The notes under the pieces are model-generated. The model saw nothing but the letters and a program-made list of their open reading frames with translations, did not search any database and had not been told where the DNA came from. From contig NZ_JUHH01000001.1 in assembly GCF_000799735.1 (NCBI RefSeq), positions 186,001-250,000 on the forward strand: a stretch of 64,000 nt of DNA. Direction: 5' to 3'. Source of the DNA: Methylotenera sp. G11 (GTDB lineage: Bacteria > Pseudomonadota > Gammaproteobacteria > Burkholderiales > Methylophilaceae). How positions within the stretch are numbered: the stretch's first letter is position 1; each line of letters opens with the position of its first letter. Shown here in pieces: positions 38,989 to 47,346 of this stretch. A program made the translations under genes and the position numbers.

Positions 38989-39026
38989 AATACAGCGCCG
39001 CGTTCCAGCACTATCAATATCGGTGC

Positions 39027-39082
39027 TATAGGTTCAGCACTACAGGTTCAGCACTACAGGTTCAGCGCTACAGGTTCAGCTT
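39027..39082. repeat. Four 14-bp tandem repeats
   Basis: The unit TACAGGTTCAGCAC is repeated four times head to tail (39027, 39041, 39055, 39069), with small changes in the first, third and last copies. It lies in the convergent gap between glk and the GGDEF/EAL gene, outside any coding sequence. No function is evident; it may vary in copy number between strains. Confidence 0.85.
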
Positions 39083-39110: not shown

Positions 39111-42100
39111 TCATGCCGGGCCGATAGAAACGGCTGTCCTGACATAGGTTTCAAATTGTTCCGCAGGCATCGCTTTGCTGAAATAATAACCCTGCACTTC
39201 ATTACAACCTTGCAGACGCAGGAAAGCCAGCTGGCCTGCTGTTTCCACGCCTTCGGCAATGGTGCGTACCCCCAGGCTGGTCGCCATGTTGATGATGGCG
39301 GCTACAATGGCTTTGTCTTCAGCATCTTCCGTGATGTCGTGTACAAAAGAACGGTCGATTTTCAGCTTGTATACCTTAAAGCGTTTCAGGTAGCTTAATG
39401 ATGAGTAACCGGTGCCAAAGTCATCTATCGACATGCGTATGCCCAGGCTGTCCAGCTTGTCCATCATCGTGACCGCGGCTTCCGGGTTATCCATCGCGGC
39501 CGCTTCCGTCAGTTCCAGTTCCAGGTAATGGTGCGGCAGGTTTTCCTCATCAAGGATGGAGGTGACCAGTACCGGGAATTTGCTGTCACGGAACTGTATC
39601 GCCGAGATATTCACAGCAATCACTGGTATGGTCAGACCGGCATCGAGCCATGCTTTCATCTGCCTGGCTGCGTTACGCAGTACCCATTCACCGATTTTCG
39701 CAATCTGTCCAGTATTTTCGGCAACAGCAATGAATTCAGTGGGGGCTATCATGCCCAGGTCAGGATGCTGCCAGCGGATTAAAGCTTCTGCGCCGATGAT
39801 ATGGCCATCATCTACAGAAACCTGCGGCTGGTAATGCAGCGCCAGCTGGTTGCGTTCAATCGCAAAGCGCAAAGCGTTTGCCAGCTGCAGGTTGCGTTCA
39901 GTGTTGGACTGCATTTCCTGTGTAAAGAAGCGGAAGCCGTTGCGGCCAGCCTGCTTGGCCTTATACATCGCGTTGTCGGCATTTTTATAAAGCATTTCTA
40001 TGTCGTTGCCATCATCCGGGTAGATGGCGATGCCTATCGAGGCGGTGGTAATCAGTTCATGCTGGTCGACGACGAAAGGGCCGGAAATGATTTCCAGCAA
40101 TCTATCAGCAAGATTGGCGGCATTATTTGCCGATGCCGTAGGTAGGACGATCACGAATTCATCACCGCCTGAGCGTGACACGGTGTCTTCGTCGCGCAGT
40201 ACGGATTTGATGCGTTTTGCCAGTTCTATCAGCATCTGGTCGCCTATGCTATGACCCAGGGTATCATTGATGTATTTGAAATGATCCAGATCTACGAGCA
40301 TGATCGCAAGGTTATTGCTGCTGTGCTGCGCCAGGCTGAGTGCATACCGGAAATGATCCTGCAGCAGGGTGCGGTTAGGCAAGCCGGTAAGCTGGTCGAA
40401 ATGCGCAAGAAACTGGATGCGTTCACCAGCCTGTAATTTCTCGGTAATATCGTCTTTGATGGCAAGGTAGTTCGAGATATTGCCTTCATCGTCACGAATC
40501 GGGGAAATCATGACATATTCAACATATTCAGTGCCGTCTTTGCGGCGGTTGATGAGCTCGCCTTTCCAGATTTCGCCGCGGGTGATGGTTGCCCACATAT
40601 CGGCGTAGGTTTGTTTCGAGGTCTTGCCGGATTGAAGGATGCGCGGGTTCTGGCCGATGACTTCGCTTTCGCTATAGCCTGATGACTTGAGCAAAGCCGA
40701 GTTCGCGAACACAATTCTGGCATCCAGGTCGGTAATGACGATGGAGTTCGGGCTTTGTTCTACGGCTAGTGATAATTTACGCAAATCGTCCTGCATCTTG
40801 TTTTTTTGCAGCGCATCTTCAAAACGGTTGATGGCAGAACTGATGTCCGATGCCATCTCCGACAGCAGTTTCTGCACATCTTTTTCGAATGCATTGAGTT
40901 CGGTAGAGTAAAAAGTAATGGCGCCAATGACTTTTTCTTTTTGATGAAGCGGCAAAGAGGCTGATGCATTCCAGCCGAATTTCCTGCCACGCTCATGCCA
41001 CGGCGCTGTCATCGGGCTGTGTGTAAAGTCCTGGCACCAGACCGGCCGGTTTTCACGTATGGAGATGCCGGTAGGGCCCTGGCCTGAAGGGTGGTCGGCA
41101 AGCGTCGATATCTCAATGCCGTTCAGGTATTCGGTATATTGCCCATAGGCTGCAACCGGGTTCACGAGATGTGTGGTTTCATCGTGAATGCCTATCCAGC
41201 ACATGCTCATGCCGCCATGCGCCACCGCATCACGGCAGATGGTGTCAAACAGTTCCGTCGTGTCTTTGCTGCGCACAATGGCTTCGTTGCAATAGCTGAG
41301 CGCAGCATAGAAACGTGTGAGCCTGTCGTTATCGGCGCGTGCTTTGGAAAGTCGCCGCTGTGTTTCCGAAAGCCAGCCCATGACACTGTTTTCCATGCCT
41401 TTGCTGACCGGGATCGCATCTTCGAAGTCGCCGCTGCCTATCCTGGCGATCTGTGACTGCACATCGTAAAGCGGGGCGCCCAGCGTTGCGCGCATGGATT
41501 GGTATGTCCTCCATAAAAAAAAGATCAGCATGAGCCCAGCCAGGATAAGCGTATAACGGCTATAGAGGGCGAGCTTTAACTCGGAGCCCACCAGGTCGGA
41601 TGTACGTTTCTCCATCATGCGGTAGCCATCGGCGATGAGTTTCATGATCTCGGCTTTTGCCTGATTGTAAGCATCGTCATGCAGCAGTTGCAGCGCCGCG
41701 GTATGATGTTCATCGTCGGCATGTTTCGAGGCCTCAAACAGCTTCATCGCCGCGAACTCGGTACTGGTGAGCTGGTCAGATTTCTTTTTGGCTTCGGATA
41801 GCTTGGCAAGCTCTTTTTCACTGAATCCCGCTTTGCTTATCAGTTCCATCAGCGGATGTGTCTCGCCGGGAACAGAGCCTGATGGCCGGTTATCCTGATG
41901 GCTGAAATCCCAATAGGCAATGTCATATTCATGGCGGCGCGGGAGCTTGCCGTCACGGATGGCAATGATTTCAGCATGGTACTGTTTGTAAAAGGGATTG
42001 CCGCTGGCGACATAAGCGCGTGCGGTGCGGGTAAGGTCATCCGAAGACTGACGCAGTTCGTTTGCCAGCAGGAAGGATTGATGACGTAACTCATTCGCGG

Positions 42101-42221
42101 AATCGATCCGTTTTTCCGCCAGTACATAAACCGTGAATAAAATACTGTAAATCACCAGGCAAATCGATGCCAGGAGCAGGTTGAGCATAAATGAGCTGGA
42201 GTTGTTGTTGCGCGCGGTCAT
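39111..42221 (-). CDS. Membrane GAF-PAS-GGDEF-EAL c-di-GMP protein
   Basis: The protein has about 1036 residues. TM helix 1 (about 12-35) and TM helix 2 (about 217-237) flank a helical periplasmic sensor. A HAMP-like linker follows, then GAF (about 300-460), PAS (about 475-595), GGDEF (about 610-770) and EAL (about 785-1030). Both enzymatic halves look intact: SRSGGDEF with I-site RDED five residues before it, and EAL with EALIRW, DDFGTGYSS, LKIDRSFV and EGVE. It could thus make or degrade c-di-GMP. Start 42221 or 42275; neither has a good ribosome site. Confidence 0.92.
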   Translation of the reverse strand: MTARNNNSSSFMLNLLLASICLVIYSILFTVYVLAEKRIDSANELRHQSFLLANELRQSSDDLTRTARAYVASGNPFYKQYHAEIIAIRDGKLPRRHEYDIAYWDFSHQDNRPSGSVPGETHPLMELISKAGFSEKELAKLSEAKKKSDQLTSTEFAAMKLFEASKHADDEHHTAALQLLHDDAYNQAKAEIMKLIADGYRMMEKRTSDLVGSELKLALYSRYTLILAGLMLIFFLWRTYQSMRATLGAPLYDVQSQIARIGSGDFEDAIPVSKGMENSVMGWLSETQRRLSKARADNDRLTRFYAALSYCNEAIVRSKDTTELFDTICRDAVAHGGMSMCWIGIHDETTHLVNPVAAYGQYTEYLNGIEISTLADHPSGQGPTGISIRENRPVWCQDFTHSPMTAPWHERGRKFGWNASASLPLHQKEKVIGAITFYSTELNAFEKDVQKLLSEMASDISSAINRFEDALQKNKMQDDLRKLSLAVEQSPNSIVITDLDARIVFANSALLKSSGYSESEVIGQNPRILQSGKTSKQTYADMWATITRGEIWKGELINRRKDGTEYVEYVMISPIRDDEGNISNYLAIKDDITEKLQAGERIQFLAHFDQLTGLPNRTLLQDHFRYALSLAQHSSNNLAIMLVDLDHFKYINDTLGHSIGDQMLIELAKRIKSVLRDEDTVSRSGGDEFVIVLPTASANNAANLADRLLEIISGPFVVDQHELITTASIGIAIYPDDGNDIEMLYKNADNAMYKAKQAGRNGFRFFTQEMQSNTERNLQLANALRFAIERNQLALHYQPQVSVDDGHIIGAEALIRWQHPDLGMIAPTEFIAVAENTGQIAKIGEWVLRNAARQMKAWLDAGLTIPVIAVNISAIQFRDSKFPVLVTSILDEENLPHHYLELELTEAAAMDNPEAAVTMMDKLDSLGIRMSIDDFGTGYSSLSYLKRFKVYKLKIDRSFVHDITEDAEDKAIVAAIINMATSLGVRTIAEGVETAGQLAFLRLQGCNEVQGYYFSKAMPAEQFETYVRTAVSIGPA

Positions 42222-42625
42222 GAGTGAGGATTGTAGATGAATTTGATTGCTTGTACATTCATATCTGCACGGCATGTTTTATGTTTTGGACAGGCATCGG
42301 ATGCAGCATCTGTTTTGACTAGGTTTAGCGTTATCGGTATGGGCGGCATGATACCTCTTTTGCGGCAGTTGAATTTGCTGCAAATCAAGTCTTGAAGAAA
42401 TCATCATGCCATAATGAATTAAATGGCTTGCATCCAGTCTATCGACAAGCGCACGGTGATAACAAAAATAAATAATAGTGGATGACGAAAAATAATAGTG
42501 AAACTTTAATCGGCTACAATCGTTGCAGTGATAGCTGCGATGCAAATTTCAATGAGAAGGTCATGCATGCTGGATCGAACTTTTAAGAATATTTTTAATG
42601 ATGCGCATAAATAATGTACGGGAGT
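42222..42625. other. Non-coding gap before the efflux operon
   Basis: No gene is recognised between the c-di-GMP gene and the tandem repeat. ATAATAGTG occurs at about 42472 and again at about 42491, and TACAAT near 42524 could be a -10 element for the efflux operon. The only Shine-Dalgarno-like sequence is GGAG at 42621-42624, which stands before the tandem repeats and is thus far from the tolC start codon. Confidence 0.35.
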
Positions 42626-42690
42626 GATACCCAGAAATGATACCCAGAAATGATACCCAGAAATGATACCCAGAAATGATACCTAGATAT
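42626..42690 (+). repeat. Five 13-bp tandem repeats running into the tolC start codon
   Basis: GATACCCAGAAAT is repeated four times exactly (42626, 42639, 42652, 42665), followed by a fifth altered copy GATACCTAGATAT (42678-42690) whose last two bases are the first two of ATG 42689. Each unit creates an ATG with the next one, giving four short out-of-phase or terminated frames (for example 42637-42666). The only GGAG lies ahead of the array. A change of unit number would shift both spacing and phase. Confidence 0.92.
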
Positions 42691-44155
42691 GTTGCGTAGA
42701 CCTATTATTACTGCACTGGTGCTGACATCCGCCCTGGTGGCAGTTCCACAGGCCATGGCCGCAGGCTCGATCTGGTATGGGGATGCGGATCCTTTATCTA
42801 CCGCACTGGAATTGCCGCCTGCTGTGTATGGCGCAGGATTCAAACCTGAAATGGCAGGACAGACCTGCACCGGCCTGGATGTCAGCCGGGCGCTGACTCT
42901 GGCCGATGTTACGGAAGCGGCTTTATGCAACAACCCGCAGACGCGGGAATCCTATGCAAATGCCAAGGTGCAGGCGGCGCAGCTGGGCATTGCCAAGTCA
43001 GCCTTTCTGCCGACCGTGACTGACAGTATCAGCGCGAATCAGAACTTCGTGAGACCTGAATCAGCCAGCAGGGGGCGTGAGTTCAATAATCTGAGCAACA
43101 GCCTTGCCGTTTCTTACCTGCTTTATGACTTTGGCAACCGTGATGCTGCGCTGGAAAACGCGCGCCAGTTGCTGAATGCAGTCAGCGCGACCCAGAGCGC
43201 CATTGTCCAGAATATATTGCTGTCGACCGTAAAAGCCTACTATCAGGTGCAGACGGACATTGCCTTGCTGGACGCCACCCGGGAATCGGAGCGCTTTAAC
43301 CTGGAAAGCTTCAAGGCGGCAGAGGCTAAATATAAAGCCGGTGTATCCACGCCGGCTGATAAGCTGCAGGCAGAAACCGCTTATGCCCAGGCTGTGCTGA
43401 ACAGGATCAGTGCCGAAGGCACCCTTAAAACCGATTACGGTATCCTGGCCAATGTCATGGGCTTGCATGCCAATACGCCGCTCAAGCTGGCGCCTGGCGT
43501 GAATTCGCCGGTCAATACAGCGGAAATAGAGCGTGATATCAACCAGCTTATCGAATATGCACGTGTGCGCCGTCCGGACCTGATGGCGAGCGAGGCGCAG
43601 GTCAGTGCGGCAAAAGCCAGTATCGAAGCAAGCCGTGCGGCGGCCAAGCCAACTGTTTCTGTCGGGGTATCCAACAGTTTTCAGGATGGCAGCAGCCTGT
43701 CTTCCAGCAGCACATCCACACTGGGGCTGACGGTGACAGTGCCGATCTTTGCCGGTTACGGGCCAACGTATAGAATACGTGCGGCAGAAGCAACGGCAGA
43801 GGCCAGGGAAGCGCAGCGCGAGCAGCTGAAACTGCAGATATCGCTGGATGTATGGACTGCGTTCCAGAACCTGCGGACTGCACATGAAACGATCAGATCG
43901 GCCGAGGCACTGGTCAGCAGCGCAAAAGAATCAGCCCGTGTGGCGCTCGGGCGTTACAAGGCTGGTGTCGGCAATATCATCGATACACTGAATGCGCAGA
44001 GTGCGCTGGCAAGTGCGGATCAGCAGAAAATCAAGGCCGATCTCGGCCGGAATATCGCCCGTGCCGCATTGGCACAGGCGATCGGCTCGCTTGACAGTGT
44101 GATGATCCAGTCCTTGCCGGGTGGCGGTAAGGCACTTACAGAAGAGGCTCCTTAA
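42689..44155 (+). CDS. TolC-family outer membrane channel
   Basis: This 488-residue outer membrane efflux protein has a Sec signal at residues 1-25 (MLRRPIITALVLTSALVAV to AMA), which fixes the start at 42689. Two OEP repeats follow (about 70-265 and 285-470) with the TolC-like ALTLADVTEAALCNNPQTR, long helices rich in Ala/Gln/Glu, and the second-half NIIDTLNAQSALASADQ. It is 10 bp before the adaptor gene. The channel would complete the MacAB-like tripartite pump. Translation start region is an unusual tandem repeat. Confidence 0.92.
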   Translation: MLRRPIITALVLTSALVAVPQAMAAGSIWYGDADPLSTALELPPAVYGAGFKPEMAGQTCTGLDVSRALTLADVTEAALCNNPQTRESYANAKVQAAQLGIAKSAFLPTVTDSISANQNFVRPESASRGREFNNLSNSLAVSYLLYDFGNRDAALENARQLLNAVSATQSAIVQNILLSTVKAYYQVQTDIALLDATRESERFNLESFKAAEAKYKAGVSTPADKLQAETAYAQAVLNRISAEGTLKTDYGILANVMGLHANTPLKLAPGVNSPVNTAEIERDINQLIEYARVRRPDLMASEAQVSAAKASIEASRAAAKPTVSVGVSNSFQDGSSLSSSSTSTLGLTVTVPIFAGYGPTYRIRAAEATAEAREAQREQLKLQISLDVWTAFQNLRTAHETIRSAEALVSSAKESARVALGRYKAGVGNIIDTLNAQSALASADQQKIKADLGRNIARAALAQAIGSLDSVMIQSLPGGGKALTEEAP

Positions 44156-44165
44156 AAGTACATCC

Positions 44166-45392
44166 ATGAGAAAAATCATTAAACAATCCACCCTGCCGCT
44201 GGTCGCGATCCTGTTGCTGGCAGGCGGCTATTATTTCTATCAAAACAGCAGGCAGGCACAGCCGGAAGACCTGTATAAGTTCGGGGCGGTGACGCAGGGC
44301 AATGTGGAACAGGCCGTCTCCGCCAACGGCACGATCAACCCGGTCACACTGGTAAGTGTAGGCACGCAGGTTTCAGGCCGGGTCAGCAAGCTGTATGTGG
44401 ATTTCAACGATAAGGTGGAAAAAGGCCAGGTGCTGCTGGAGCTGGACGATGCTTTATTTACAGCACAGATAGCACAATCGCAAGGCAGTGTGCGCAATGC
44501 AGAAGCCTCGGTAGAGCTTGCCAAAGCGAATGAGGCCAGAATCAGATCGCTATATGAGCAGGAGTATGTGTCCAGGCAGGAGCTGGACCAGTCGGTACAG
44601 GCATTGAAGTCTGCCAGGGCGGTGCTGGAAAGTGCGCGAGCCCAATTGCAGCGTGATAAAACCAATCTGTCGTATTCGATCATCCGCTCACCGGTATCGG
44701 GGATTGTGATCGACAGGCAGATCGACGTCGGCCAGACAGTCGCCGCGAGCTTCCAGACGCCGACATTGATCAAGATCGCACAGGATCTGTCCAAGATGCA
44801 GATTGATACCAGTTTTGCCGAGGCGGATATCGGCAACATCAAAGTCGGGCAGGTTGCCAGATTCAGTGTTGACGCCTTCCCGAACCTGAATTTTGAGGGA
44901 ACGGTCAAGCAGATACGCCTGAATCCGGTCACGACCTCTAATGTGGTTTCATATAATGTGGTGATTTCCGTGGATAACCCGCAGCAGATACTGCTGCCCG
45001 GCATGACGGCTTATGTGAGCATTGTGTTCGCAAAGCATGAAAACGTCATGTTGGTGCCCAATGCCGCGCTGCGCTATAAGCCCAAGCTTGATAGCGATGC
45101 CGAAGGCGTCAAGGCGACTGGGAATGGCAGCGATGCCGGCCAGGGGCAGGGCAAGAGCCGCAGGAAAAAACCTGCCGAGATGGCGGAGGCCGGTGGTTTC
45201 GGGCGTGGCAAAGTATTTGTGCTGCAGGATGGCAAGCCGCAAGTGCGGCAGGTCAAGGTCGGCATTACGGACGGCAAGCTGACTGAAATCATCAGCGATA
45301 CGCTGAAGCCGGGCGACCAGGTGATTACCGGCAATGCCCAGGCTGATGGCCAGGCGCCGGCTAACGCGATGCGTGCGCCGCGAATGTTTTAA
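44166..45392 (+). CDS. MacA-like periplasmic adaptor
   Basis: The 408-residue membrane fusion protein has an N-terminal anchor (about 8-27, LPLVAILLLAGGYYFYQNS). The lipoyl halves follow (VSVGTQVSGRVSKLYVDFNDKVEKGQVL and IIRSPVSGIVIDRQIDVGQ) around a coiled-coil hairpin (about 95-165). Beta-barrel and membrane-proximal domains follow. A Gly/Lys-rich insertion (about 316-343, QGQGKSRRKKP) near the C-terminus is unusual. ATG 44166 is preferred since it gives the usual positively charged start (MRKIIKQS). It links the ABC permease to the outer channel. Confidence 0.93.
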   Translation: MRKIIKQSTLPLVAILLLAGGYYFYQNSRQAQPEDLYKFGAVTQGNVEQAVSANGTINPVTLVSVGTQVSGRVSKLYVDFNDKVEKGQVLLELDDALFTAQIAQSQGSVRNAEASVELAKANEARIRSLYEQEYVSRQELDQSVQALKSARAVLESARAQLQRDKTNLSYSIIRSPVSGIVIDRQIDVGQTVAASFQTPTLIKIAQDLSKMQIDTSFAEADIGNIKVGQVARFSVDAFPNLNFEGTVKQIRLNPVTTSNVVSYNVVISVDNPQQILLPGMTAYVSIVFAKHENVMLVPNAALRYKPKLDSDAEGVKATGNGSDAGQGQGKSRRKKPAEMAEAGGFGRGKVFVLQDGKPQVRQVKVGITDGKLTEIISDTLKPGDQVITGNAQADGQAPANAMRAPRMF

Positions 45393-45415
45393 CTCTTGAC
45401 GGCAAATACCTCCAG

Positions 45416-46123
45416 ATGAGCAATGTGATTGAAGTGCACCATATCTACAAGGATTACCAGACCGCGGCTGGCGCTTTTCCTGTGCTTAAAGATGTGAACC
45501 TGAGCATAGCACGCGGTGACTATGTGGCTATCATGGGGCCTTCCGGCTCCGGAAAATCCACGTTCATGAATATATTGGGTTGCCTGGATCGGCCAACAGA
45601 CGGCGATTACCTGCTGGATGGACATCAGGTCGCGCAGCTGGAGGGTAATGCCCTGGCACGGCTGAGAAACAAGACGATAGGCTTTGTGTTTCAGGGTTTT
45701 AACCTGCTTGCCCGTTCCAGCCTGCTGGATAATGTCGCTTTACCGCTGGTGTATTCCGGTGTGGATAAAAAGACGCGGCATGAGAAAGCGGCGCAGGTGC
45801 TGGCTAAAGTCGGCCTCGGCAATTATCTTAACTCGCGTCCCAGCCAGATATCAGGCGGGCAGCAGCAGCGCGTGGCGATTGCCCGGGCGCTCATCAATAC
45901 CCCGCGCCTGATACTGGCCGACGAGCCCACCGGCAACCTTGACAGCAAGACCAGTGAAGAGATTATGCAGCTGTTTGATAGCCTGAACAGCGAAGGAATT
46001 TCCATCGTACTGGTCACGCATGAAACCGACATTGCCGAGCATGCAAAACGTCAGGTGCGTTTCCTGGACGGGAAAATCGTGCATGACAGCTACGCATTGC
46101 CCGCGGCAACGGAGGCAAACTGA
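45416..46123 (+). CDS. MacB-type ABC ATPase
   Basis: The 235-residue ATPase has Walker [10 protein letters not shown], the Q-loop [18 protein letters not shown], signature [15 protein letters not shown], Walker [13 protein letters not shown] and the H-loop VTHETD. It belongs to the LolD/MacB/FtsE clade. E. coli MacB carries the ATPase and permease on one chain; here they are split, with a one-base overlap of stop and start (TGATG at 46121-46125). Confidence 0.95.
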
Positions 46124-47346
46124 TGTTTACGGCAATGCTGGGTGAAGCATGGCATGCCATGGGTGCAAACCGCATGCGCACATTCTTGACCATGCTGGGC
46201 ATGATGATAGGGGTGGGCGCGGTGGTGATGATGATGGCCATAGGCGAAGGCGCGCAGCAGTCCATCAAAAAGTCCATCAGCTCCATGGGCAGCAATCTGT
46301 TTATTGTGCTATCCGGGCCACCGAATGCCGGCGGAGCTAGGTCGGCCACGGGCAATGCGCTTTCGTTGAACGTAAAGGATGCCGACGCCATTGGCGAACT
46401 GGATGGCATCGCAGGCGTTGCGCCGACCACGATGGGCAGTGCGCAGGTGATCTATGCCGGCAACAACTGGAACACGACGATTATTGGCACTACGCCAAGC
46501 TATATGGAAATTCGTGACTGGGTGATTGATGACGGTTATGTCTTCTCCAATTCTGACATGCGTTCTGCCACGCGGGTTGCCCTGGTCGGCAGAACCGTTG
46601 CAGATAACCTGTTTGGCGACACTGTTGATCCGGTAGGCAAAACGATCCGGATCAGGCAAAGCCCGTTTATGGTGGTCGGGGTCCTGAATCCCAAAGGCCA
46701 GAGCCTTGATGGACGGGATCAGGACGATACCATCATCGTGCCGCTGACTACGGCGCAGCGTAAGTTGTTCGGCAACCAGGTGCCCGGCAGCGTCAGGATG
46801 ATGATGGTGCAGGCTGAGTCAGATAAAGCCATGCCGCAGGCTGAAGAAGACATCAACAACCTGCTGCGGCAGCGGCATAATATACGCGAAGGTTCCGACA
46901 GCGATTTCTCCGTGCGCAACCTGACCGCCATTGCGAATACCGCCGCTGAAACTACGCGCACGATGGCGCTGCTGCTGGGGGCGATCGCTTCAATCTCGCT
47001 GCTGGTGGGCGGCATCGGCATCATGAATATCATGCTGGTGTCGGTGACGGAGCGTACGCGTGAAATCGGCATCCGCATGGCGATAGGCGCCCGCGAGCGC
47101 GACATCCTGCTGCAGTTCCTGCTGGAAGCGTTTGTGATTTCTATCGTGGGTTGTGTGATCGGCATACTGATAGGCGTAGGCGGGGCGATGCTGGTAAAGA
47201 ACTTCACCGGTACTGATGCAATCGTGACTACGCAGTCAATTACACTGGCGTTTGCGGTAGCGGCCAGTGTCGGCATTTTTTTCGGGTTTTACCCGGCACG
47301 CAAGGCGGCGCGGCTGAATCCGATTGAAGCGCTTCGTTATCAGTAG
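46123..47346 (+). CDS. MacB-type ABC permease (FtsX family)
   Basis: The 407-residue mechanotransmission permease has TM1 (about 19-40, MLGMMIGVGAVVMMMAIGEG), a large periplasmic MacB_PCD domain (about 45-275), then three C-terminal helices of the FtsX domain. That domain includes LLLGAIASISLLVGGIGIMN, VTERTREIGIRMAIGARERDIL and PARKAARLNPIEALRYQ. Last gene of the tolC-macA-ATPase-permease operon. Substrates of such pumps include macrolides, heme precursors, toxins and lipopeptides; none can be told here. Confidence 0.95.
   Translation: MFTAMLGEAWHAMGANRMRTFLTMLGMMIGVGAVVMMMAIGEGAQQSIKKSISSMGSNLFIVLSGPPNAGGARSATGNALSLNVKDADAIGELDGIAGVAPTTMGSAQVIYAGNNWNTTIIGTTPSYMEIRDWVIDDGYVFSNSDMRSATRVALVGRTVADNLFGDTVDPVGKTIRIRQSPFMVVGVLNPKGQSLDGRDQDDTIIVPLTTAQRKLFGNQVPGSVRMMMVQAESDKAMPQAEEDINNLLRQRHNIREGSDSDFSVRNLTAIANTAAETTRTMALLLGAIASISLLVGGIGIMNIMLVSVTERTREIGIRMAIGARERDILLQFLLEAFVISIVGCVIGILIGVGGAMLVKNFTGTDAIVTTQSITLAFAVAASVGIFFGFYPARKAARLNPIEALRYQ

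Follow-up and report, generated by a model that had tools for sequence, protein, structure and literature searches.

The window analysed here is a 64,000-nucleotide stretch of the genome of Methylotenera sp. G11, which is a single contig of 2,545,099 bases. Its forward strand carries a tolC gene (42689-44155) for a 488-residue protein of the OEP/TolC family. The open reading frame is matched by the Pfam OEP profile and, as its best NCBIfam match, by TIGR01844, the latter below its cut-off; by inspection, the product begins with a signal peptide (MLRRPIITALVLTSALVAVPQAMA), and its nearest named relatives are from Methylotenera. On the same strand, ORFs and family matches identify a MacA-like adaptor (from 44166), a MacB-like ATPase (from 45416) and a MacB-like permease (from 46123), together spanning 44166-47346, so that tolC, the macA-like gene and the split macB-like genes probably constitute one operon. 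An OEP/TolC gene next to such partners is the layout of a MacAB-type exporter, an assignment made at family level only: the RND_mfp cut-off was passed, while the NCBIfam cut-offs for the TolC, MacA and MacB families were missed.

Comparison of tolC with the orthologue of the nearest relative, L032 (85% identity between the TolC proteins), gave dN = 0.088 and dS of about 1.2, the latter being near saturation. Judged by these substitution rates, tolC is intact and under strong constraint; therefore, this lineage evidently still expresses the gene or ceased to do so only very recently.

Upstream, a PAS/GGDEF/EAL gene (39111-42275) on the minus strand points away from tolC. In the divergent intergenic region, AATAATAGTG is found twice, 20 bp apart (42471-42500). 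Positions 42496-42542 are probably a remnant of the 3' end of the phospholipase A (PLA1) gene that is sited just upstream of tolC in L032 (local match score 45, shuffled maximum 37); no relative of the L032 PLA1 gene was found elsewhere in the window's genome. A Fur-box-like sequence (such as GTTAATGATAACCGTTCTC), absent from the window, lies 110-170 nt upstream of tolC in eight of 64 orthologues (L011, L012, L013, L108, L109, L111, L115 and L116), with scores that exceed those of shuffles only slightly; these sequences hint that the exporter may be under iron control in some relatives.

Directly 5' of the tolC start codon, on the same strand, there is a tandem array of five near-identical 13-bp units (42624-42688), apparent from the letters themselves, from TRF and from a register alignment. 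TRF run on the window placed it at 42625-42691, with period 13, 5.2 copies, 96% matches and a score of 120. Units of at least some 10 bp that follow one another head to tail and are nearly identical define a minisatellite-type (VNTR-type) array, and the present one qualifies. The first unit, at 42624, is led by GTG (GTGATACCCAGAA); those at 42637, 42650 and 42663 are perfect copies of ATGATACCCAGAA; the last, at 42676, is the CCTAGAT variant ATGATACCTAGAT, with ATG 42689 directly 3' of it. A previous sequence-only reading had described five units reaching ATG 42689. The array itself was confirmed, but its limits required correction, as the register includes two more, degenerate units upstream (42598-42623), recognized in the register alignment and in a period-26 TRF row. 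These match the consensus at 10 of 13 positions (unit 42598) and 7 of 13 (unit 42611), and the latter match could be due to chance. The edge units of the array are thus degenerate, and the middle ones identical. The same reading had every unit creating an ATG and a short frame; four of the five do so, the ATGs at 42637, 42650, 42663 and 42676 opening frames of 9, 9, 7 and 7 codons, respectively, but the first unit carries GTG instead.

The array is not a chance product, because the 36 near-matches to the unit seen in the window (15 expected) were reached by none of 100 window shuffles, and because no other non-coding array scored as high in the 464-kb sample of the genome that our repeat survey covered. 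Next in that sample come one with 3.9 copies of a 14-bp unit (39026-39080) and one with 3.4 copies of a 15-bp unit. The former (CTACAGGTTCAGCA) is similar in kind; it sits between convergent genes and has no start codon nearby. Some array was present near the start of 13 of the 174 genes sampled, and the genome simply has an abundance of small tandem duplications in its non-coding DNA. We also compared 64 tolC orthologues with 340 genes sampled from three Methylotenera genomes. Arrays scoring at least 50 occurred near the start in 5/64 and 17/340 cases, respectively; with no clear overall excess, tolC is ruled out as a family-wide repeat hot spot. Arrays touching the start codon were found in 4/64 orthologues vs 5/340 sampled genes, an excess that is weak and post hoc. 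In another genus of the same family (L068), a 22-bp x 2 duplication extends across what is probably the start region of the tolC orthologue.

Alignment with L032 defined what is new at this locus. The leader at 42548-42597 aligns to its L032 counterpart with a local score of 43 (shuffled maximum 23). In L032 the aligned block ends in TTTTA and the tolC ATG comes next; in the window it ends in TTTTTA, with 42598 as the first position of the 13-bp register. Since the L032 start codon directly follows the aligned block, the lineage-specific block is 42598-42688, exactly seven units (7 x 13 bp = 91 bp), between the conserved leader and tolC. Among the 52 genomes of the genus examined, the array occurs in this species only: a pair of adjacent units was found in none of the other 51, even when three mismatches were allowed. 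L032 has an unrelated duplication of its own (13-bp x 2.3), ending one nucleotide before its tolC ATG. The array sequence was not matched in plasmid or viral-contig collections, by which an origin from a mobile element or plasmid is ruled out. The tolC start codon occupies the eighth position of the 13-bp register, and the 13-mer located there (ATGTTGCGTAGAC) agrees at 9/13 positions with the first unit and likewise with the last (P of about 0.02 each, given the ATG); these matches suggest that the unit may have been copied from the start-codon region.

We found no Shine-Dalgarno (SD) pairing at ATG 42689 (+0.2 kcal/mol), a value shared or exceeded in weakness by about 18% of sampled ORFs. GGAG does lie at 42621-42624, where the sequence-only reading had placed it. 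However, that reading also took the repeats to be inserted between this SD and the tolC start, with copy number altering the spacing, and neither proposal survived: GGAG is itself part of the lineage-specific insertion (12 nt 5' of ATG 42637 and 64 nt 5' of ATG 42689), and the SD-like site common to L032, AAGG at 42557-42560 (L032 counterpart GAGAAAGG), lies 6 nt 5' of ATG 42567 and serves that other ORF. Control through SD spacing is ruled out on these grounds. Nor can gain or loss of units bring upstream ATGs into the TolC phase, as had been supposed, because the last unit, however many copies there are, contributes a TGA (42677-42679) that closes the TolC frame. This stop codon rules out an N-terminal TolC extension through the repeats, and also means that changes in copy number do not alter whether the gene is in phase with a start codon, as phase variation of that type would entail. 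An RNA structure or a known RNA family is ruled out as well, given that folding of the leader was not unusual (z of 1.04) and that an Rfam search of it returned no family (best E 0.69).

Frame analysis of the forward strand revealed a chain of short ORFs leading to tolC. The first (uORF1, 42567-42614, MLDRTFKNIFNDAHK) ends with a TAA that overlaps ATG 42614 (TAATG); its L032 counterpart (MLNRIFKNTFQEYF) likewise ends in TAATG, exactly on the L032 tolC start. A second leader ORF, MYGSDTQK (42614-42640), overlaps ATG 42637 through ATGA, and the repeat-borne MIPRNDTQK (42637-42666) overlaps ATG 42663 in the same manner. The last, MIPRNDT (42663-42686), terminates at TAG 42684-42686, a codon created 2 nt before ATG 42689 by the C-to-T change of the final unit. 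The stop/start distances from uORF1 into tolC are therefore -1, -4, -4 and +2, all four falling within the range of about -8 to +10 nt between stop and next start that is used to predict coupling. If ribosomes are taken always to choose the start nearest each stop, adding or removing one unit moves the final stop to 11 nt beyond the tolC ATG; by a permissive rule, tolC is reached, at +9, in the other copy-number phase as well.

We regard this geometry as only weakly indicative of a function, because such overlaps arise from any 13-mer that contains ATGA and no other stops, because 9.7% of shuffled leaders also link 42567 to 42689 (43% when shuffling is confined to the flanks and spares the array), and because the permissive rule does not restrict access to tolC to one phase. 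Moreover, uORF1 is not conserved in L033, where its stop falls 28 nt inside tolC, or in L034, where it has no ATG. SD-led short ORFs do occur near the tolC start in relatives: at L032:2957-3000, with a TAATG overlap; in L069 (MTLLRINR), ending 7 nt before the start; and in L012 and L116, ending 4 nt before it. A conserved leader peptide is ruled out, as the SD-led ORFs of L032, L069, L012 and L116 differ in both peptide and position.

Overall, the array is probably a young minisatellite, near-neutral or mildly attenuating. The sequences establish the array, its register, its lack of counterparts in relatives, the closure of the TolC frame and the constraint on tolC; how the unit arose from the start-codon 13-mer, how TolC is translated and how large any effect would be, we infer as follows. 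In this Methylotenera lineage, 13 bp at the start of tolC would have been duplicated in tandem, giving seven units in register and placing the start codon 91 bp farther from the leader, and the middle units would have become identical through recent expansion. Translation of TolC would still begin at ATG 42689, with ribosomes that either initiate there without an SD or are passed on from the leader ORFs through termination-reinitiation, and the array would be tolerated as near-neutral or as a mild attenuator acting via decoy ATGs.

Several observations support the minisatellite reading: the restriction of the array to one species of the genus and its absence from L032; the contrast between degenerate edge units and identical middle ones; the similar 14-15-bp arrays elsewhere in the genome, including the one between convergent genes, and the proportion of sampled genes with an array near their start; the intact and constrained tolC; the unremarkable lack of an SD at 42689; and the ordinary folding of the leader, together with the chance-level occurrence of the 13-mer elsewhere. 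Against it, the array ends exactly at the start codon and the last unit bears the C-to-T change responsible for the TAG 2 nt 5' of ATG, features that could reflect selection for coupling; start-touching arrays are commoner in tolC orthologues, within the limits stated above; and the start-unit origin depends on the 9/13 matches. Should the leader ORFs not hand ribosomes on, the array would be a clean example of a young start-codon tandem duplication being tolerated, and a caution that selection is not needed for overlapping stop/start patterns to appear in repeats.

Possibly, although we deem it doubtful, the chain of ORFs is functional: ribosomes would load at the uORF1 SD (ATG 42567) or at ATG 42637 and pass via the stop/start overlaps into tolC, each unit pair representing one step. 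The yield would fall with copy number, and the last stop would lie 2 nt short of the tolC start or 11 nt beyond it, depending on whether the number of units is odd or even. Reinitiation from short peptides, already raised from the sequence, does fit known coupling distances (the 4-nt overlaps and a last stop 2 nt before tolC), all four junctions lying in the range used to predict coupling, which declines sharply as distance grows (PMC10666635). Also in its favor are the lack of an SD proper to tolC and the sharing of uORF1 and its SD with L032, where uORF1 ends on the tolC start. The case is geometric, however; the overlaps come automatically with the repeat, shuffled leaders reach the start too, parity need not matter under the permissive rule, and the uORF1 arrangement is missing in L033 and L034. 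Reinitiation from the leader ORFs into tolC, possibly dependent on odd or even copy number, is plausible on this basis. Its most elaborate form, in which ATGA-joined two-unit ORFs make every two units one reinitiation step and the parity of the copies yields graded or alternating TolC levels, seems to us quite improbable. If such a ladder did work, the frequency of serial reinitiation by bacterial ribosomes could be examined in a small natural system, and slippage could tune translation while leaving the protein unaltered.

We have similarly little confidence in a phase-variable contingency locus, in which slippage would alter copy number within the population and so switch or tune the pump. 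A tandem array with identical central units, of a length not divisible by three, would suit this role, but the species is represented by one genome, and only three units are perfect; three perfect 13-mers alone make frequent slippage doubtful. In addition, copy number cannot change the TolC frame, given TGA 42677-42679, and the organism is an environmental methylotroph with no obvious need for such a switch. A precedent for tuning through leader copy number is Moraxella uspA2, as summarized in PMC4679880.

It is still less likely that the units are iterated binding sites for a DNA- or RNA-binding regulator. An identical motif repeated beside a start codon would be compatible with this idea, which has also been proposed for the TAACTGA arrays of Beggiatoaceae (PMC4679880). 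Yet outside the array we found only two one-mismatch sites for the 13-mer in 2.5 Mb, about 3 being expected by arithmetic, so that a regulon-type motif is ruled out; there is no tandem pair in relatives, a 13-bp period does not hold sites on one face of the DNA, and no Rfam family was recovered. Least credible of all is a promoter within the array or immediately upstream of it, giving a leaderless or very short-leader mRNA with untranslated repeats: the lack of an SD at 42689 and a scan with nothing convincing upstream would agree with it, but no -10/-35 pair was recognized in the array either, and the scan yielded no more than chance.

The closest known parallel is in marine Beggiatoaceae, where arrays of the TAACTGA heptamer end just before start codons, mostly lack a downstream SD and carry stop codons in every frame (PMC4679880). 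The tolC array shares the short units within a few nucleotides of a start codon, the length not a multiple of three, the coding-strand stops in three frames and the usual lack of an SD downstream. Whereas a Beggiatoaceae genome has 169 sets of a single motif (PMC4679880), ours is one locus with a 13-bp unit, each copy of which also supplies an ATG (GTG in the first of the five), and the two one-mismatch sites elsewhere do not make it a motif preceding many start codons. For uspA2 of Moraxella catarrhalis, the number of AGAT copies in the 5' leader varies between strains and changes expression (Attia and Hansen 2006, as cited in PMC4679880). The tolC repeats, too, precede an outer membrane protein gene and lie in its 5' leader; their unit is 13 bp long, and copy-number variation and an effect on expression, documented for uspA2, are hypothetical for tolC.

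In E. coli and Haloferax, termination-reinitiation coupling falls steeply with distance, -8 to +10 nt being predictive (PMC10666635). The distances in the tolC leader resemble those of ATGA/TAATG translational coupling (PMC6728339, PMC10666635), but the known cases join full genes, unlike this predicted chain of 7-15-codon ORFs. In the library of papers searched, none names both Methylotenera and tandem repeats. Among the non-coding arrays of the same genome and neighbouring Methylotenera species, the tolC array falls within the range, with similar unit lengths (10-34 bp); unlike those, mostly of 2-4 copies, it exceeds all other sampled arrays with 13-15-bp units in copy number.
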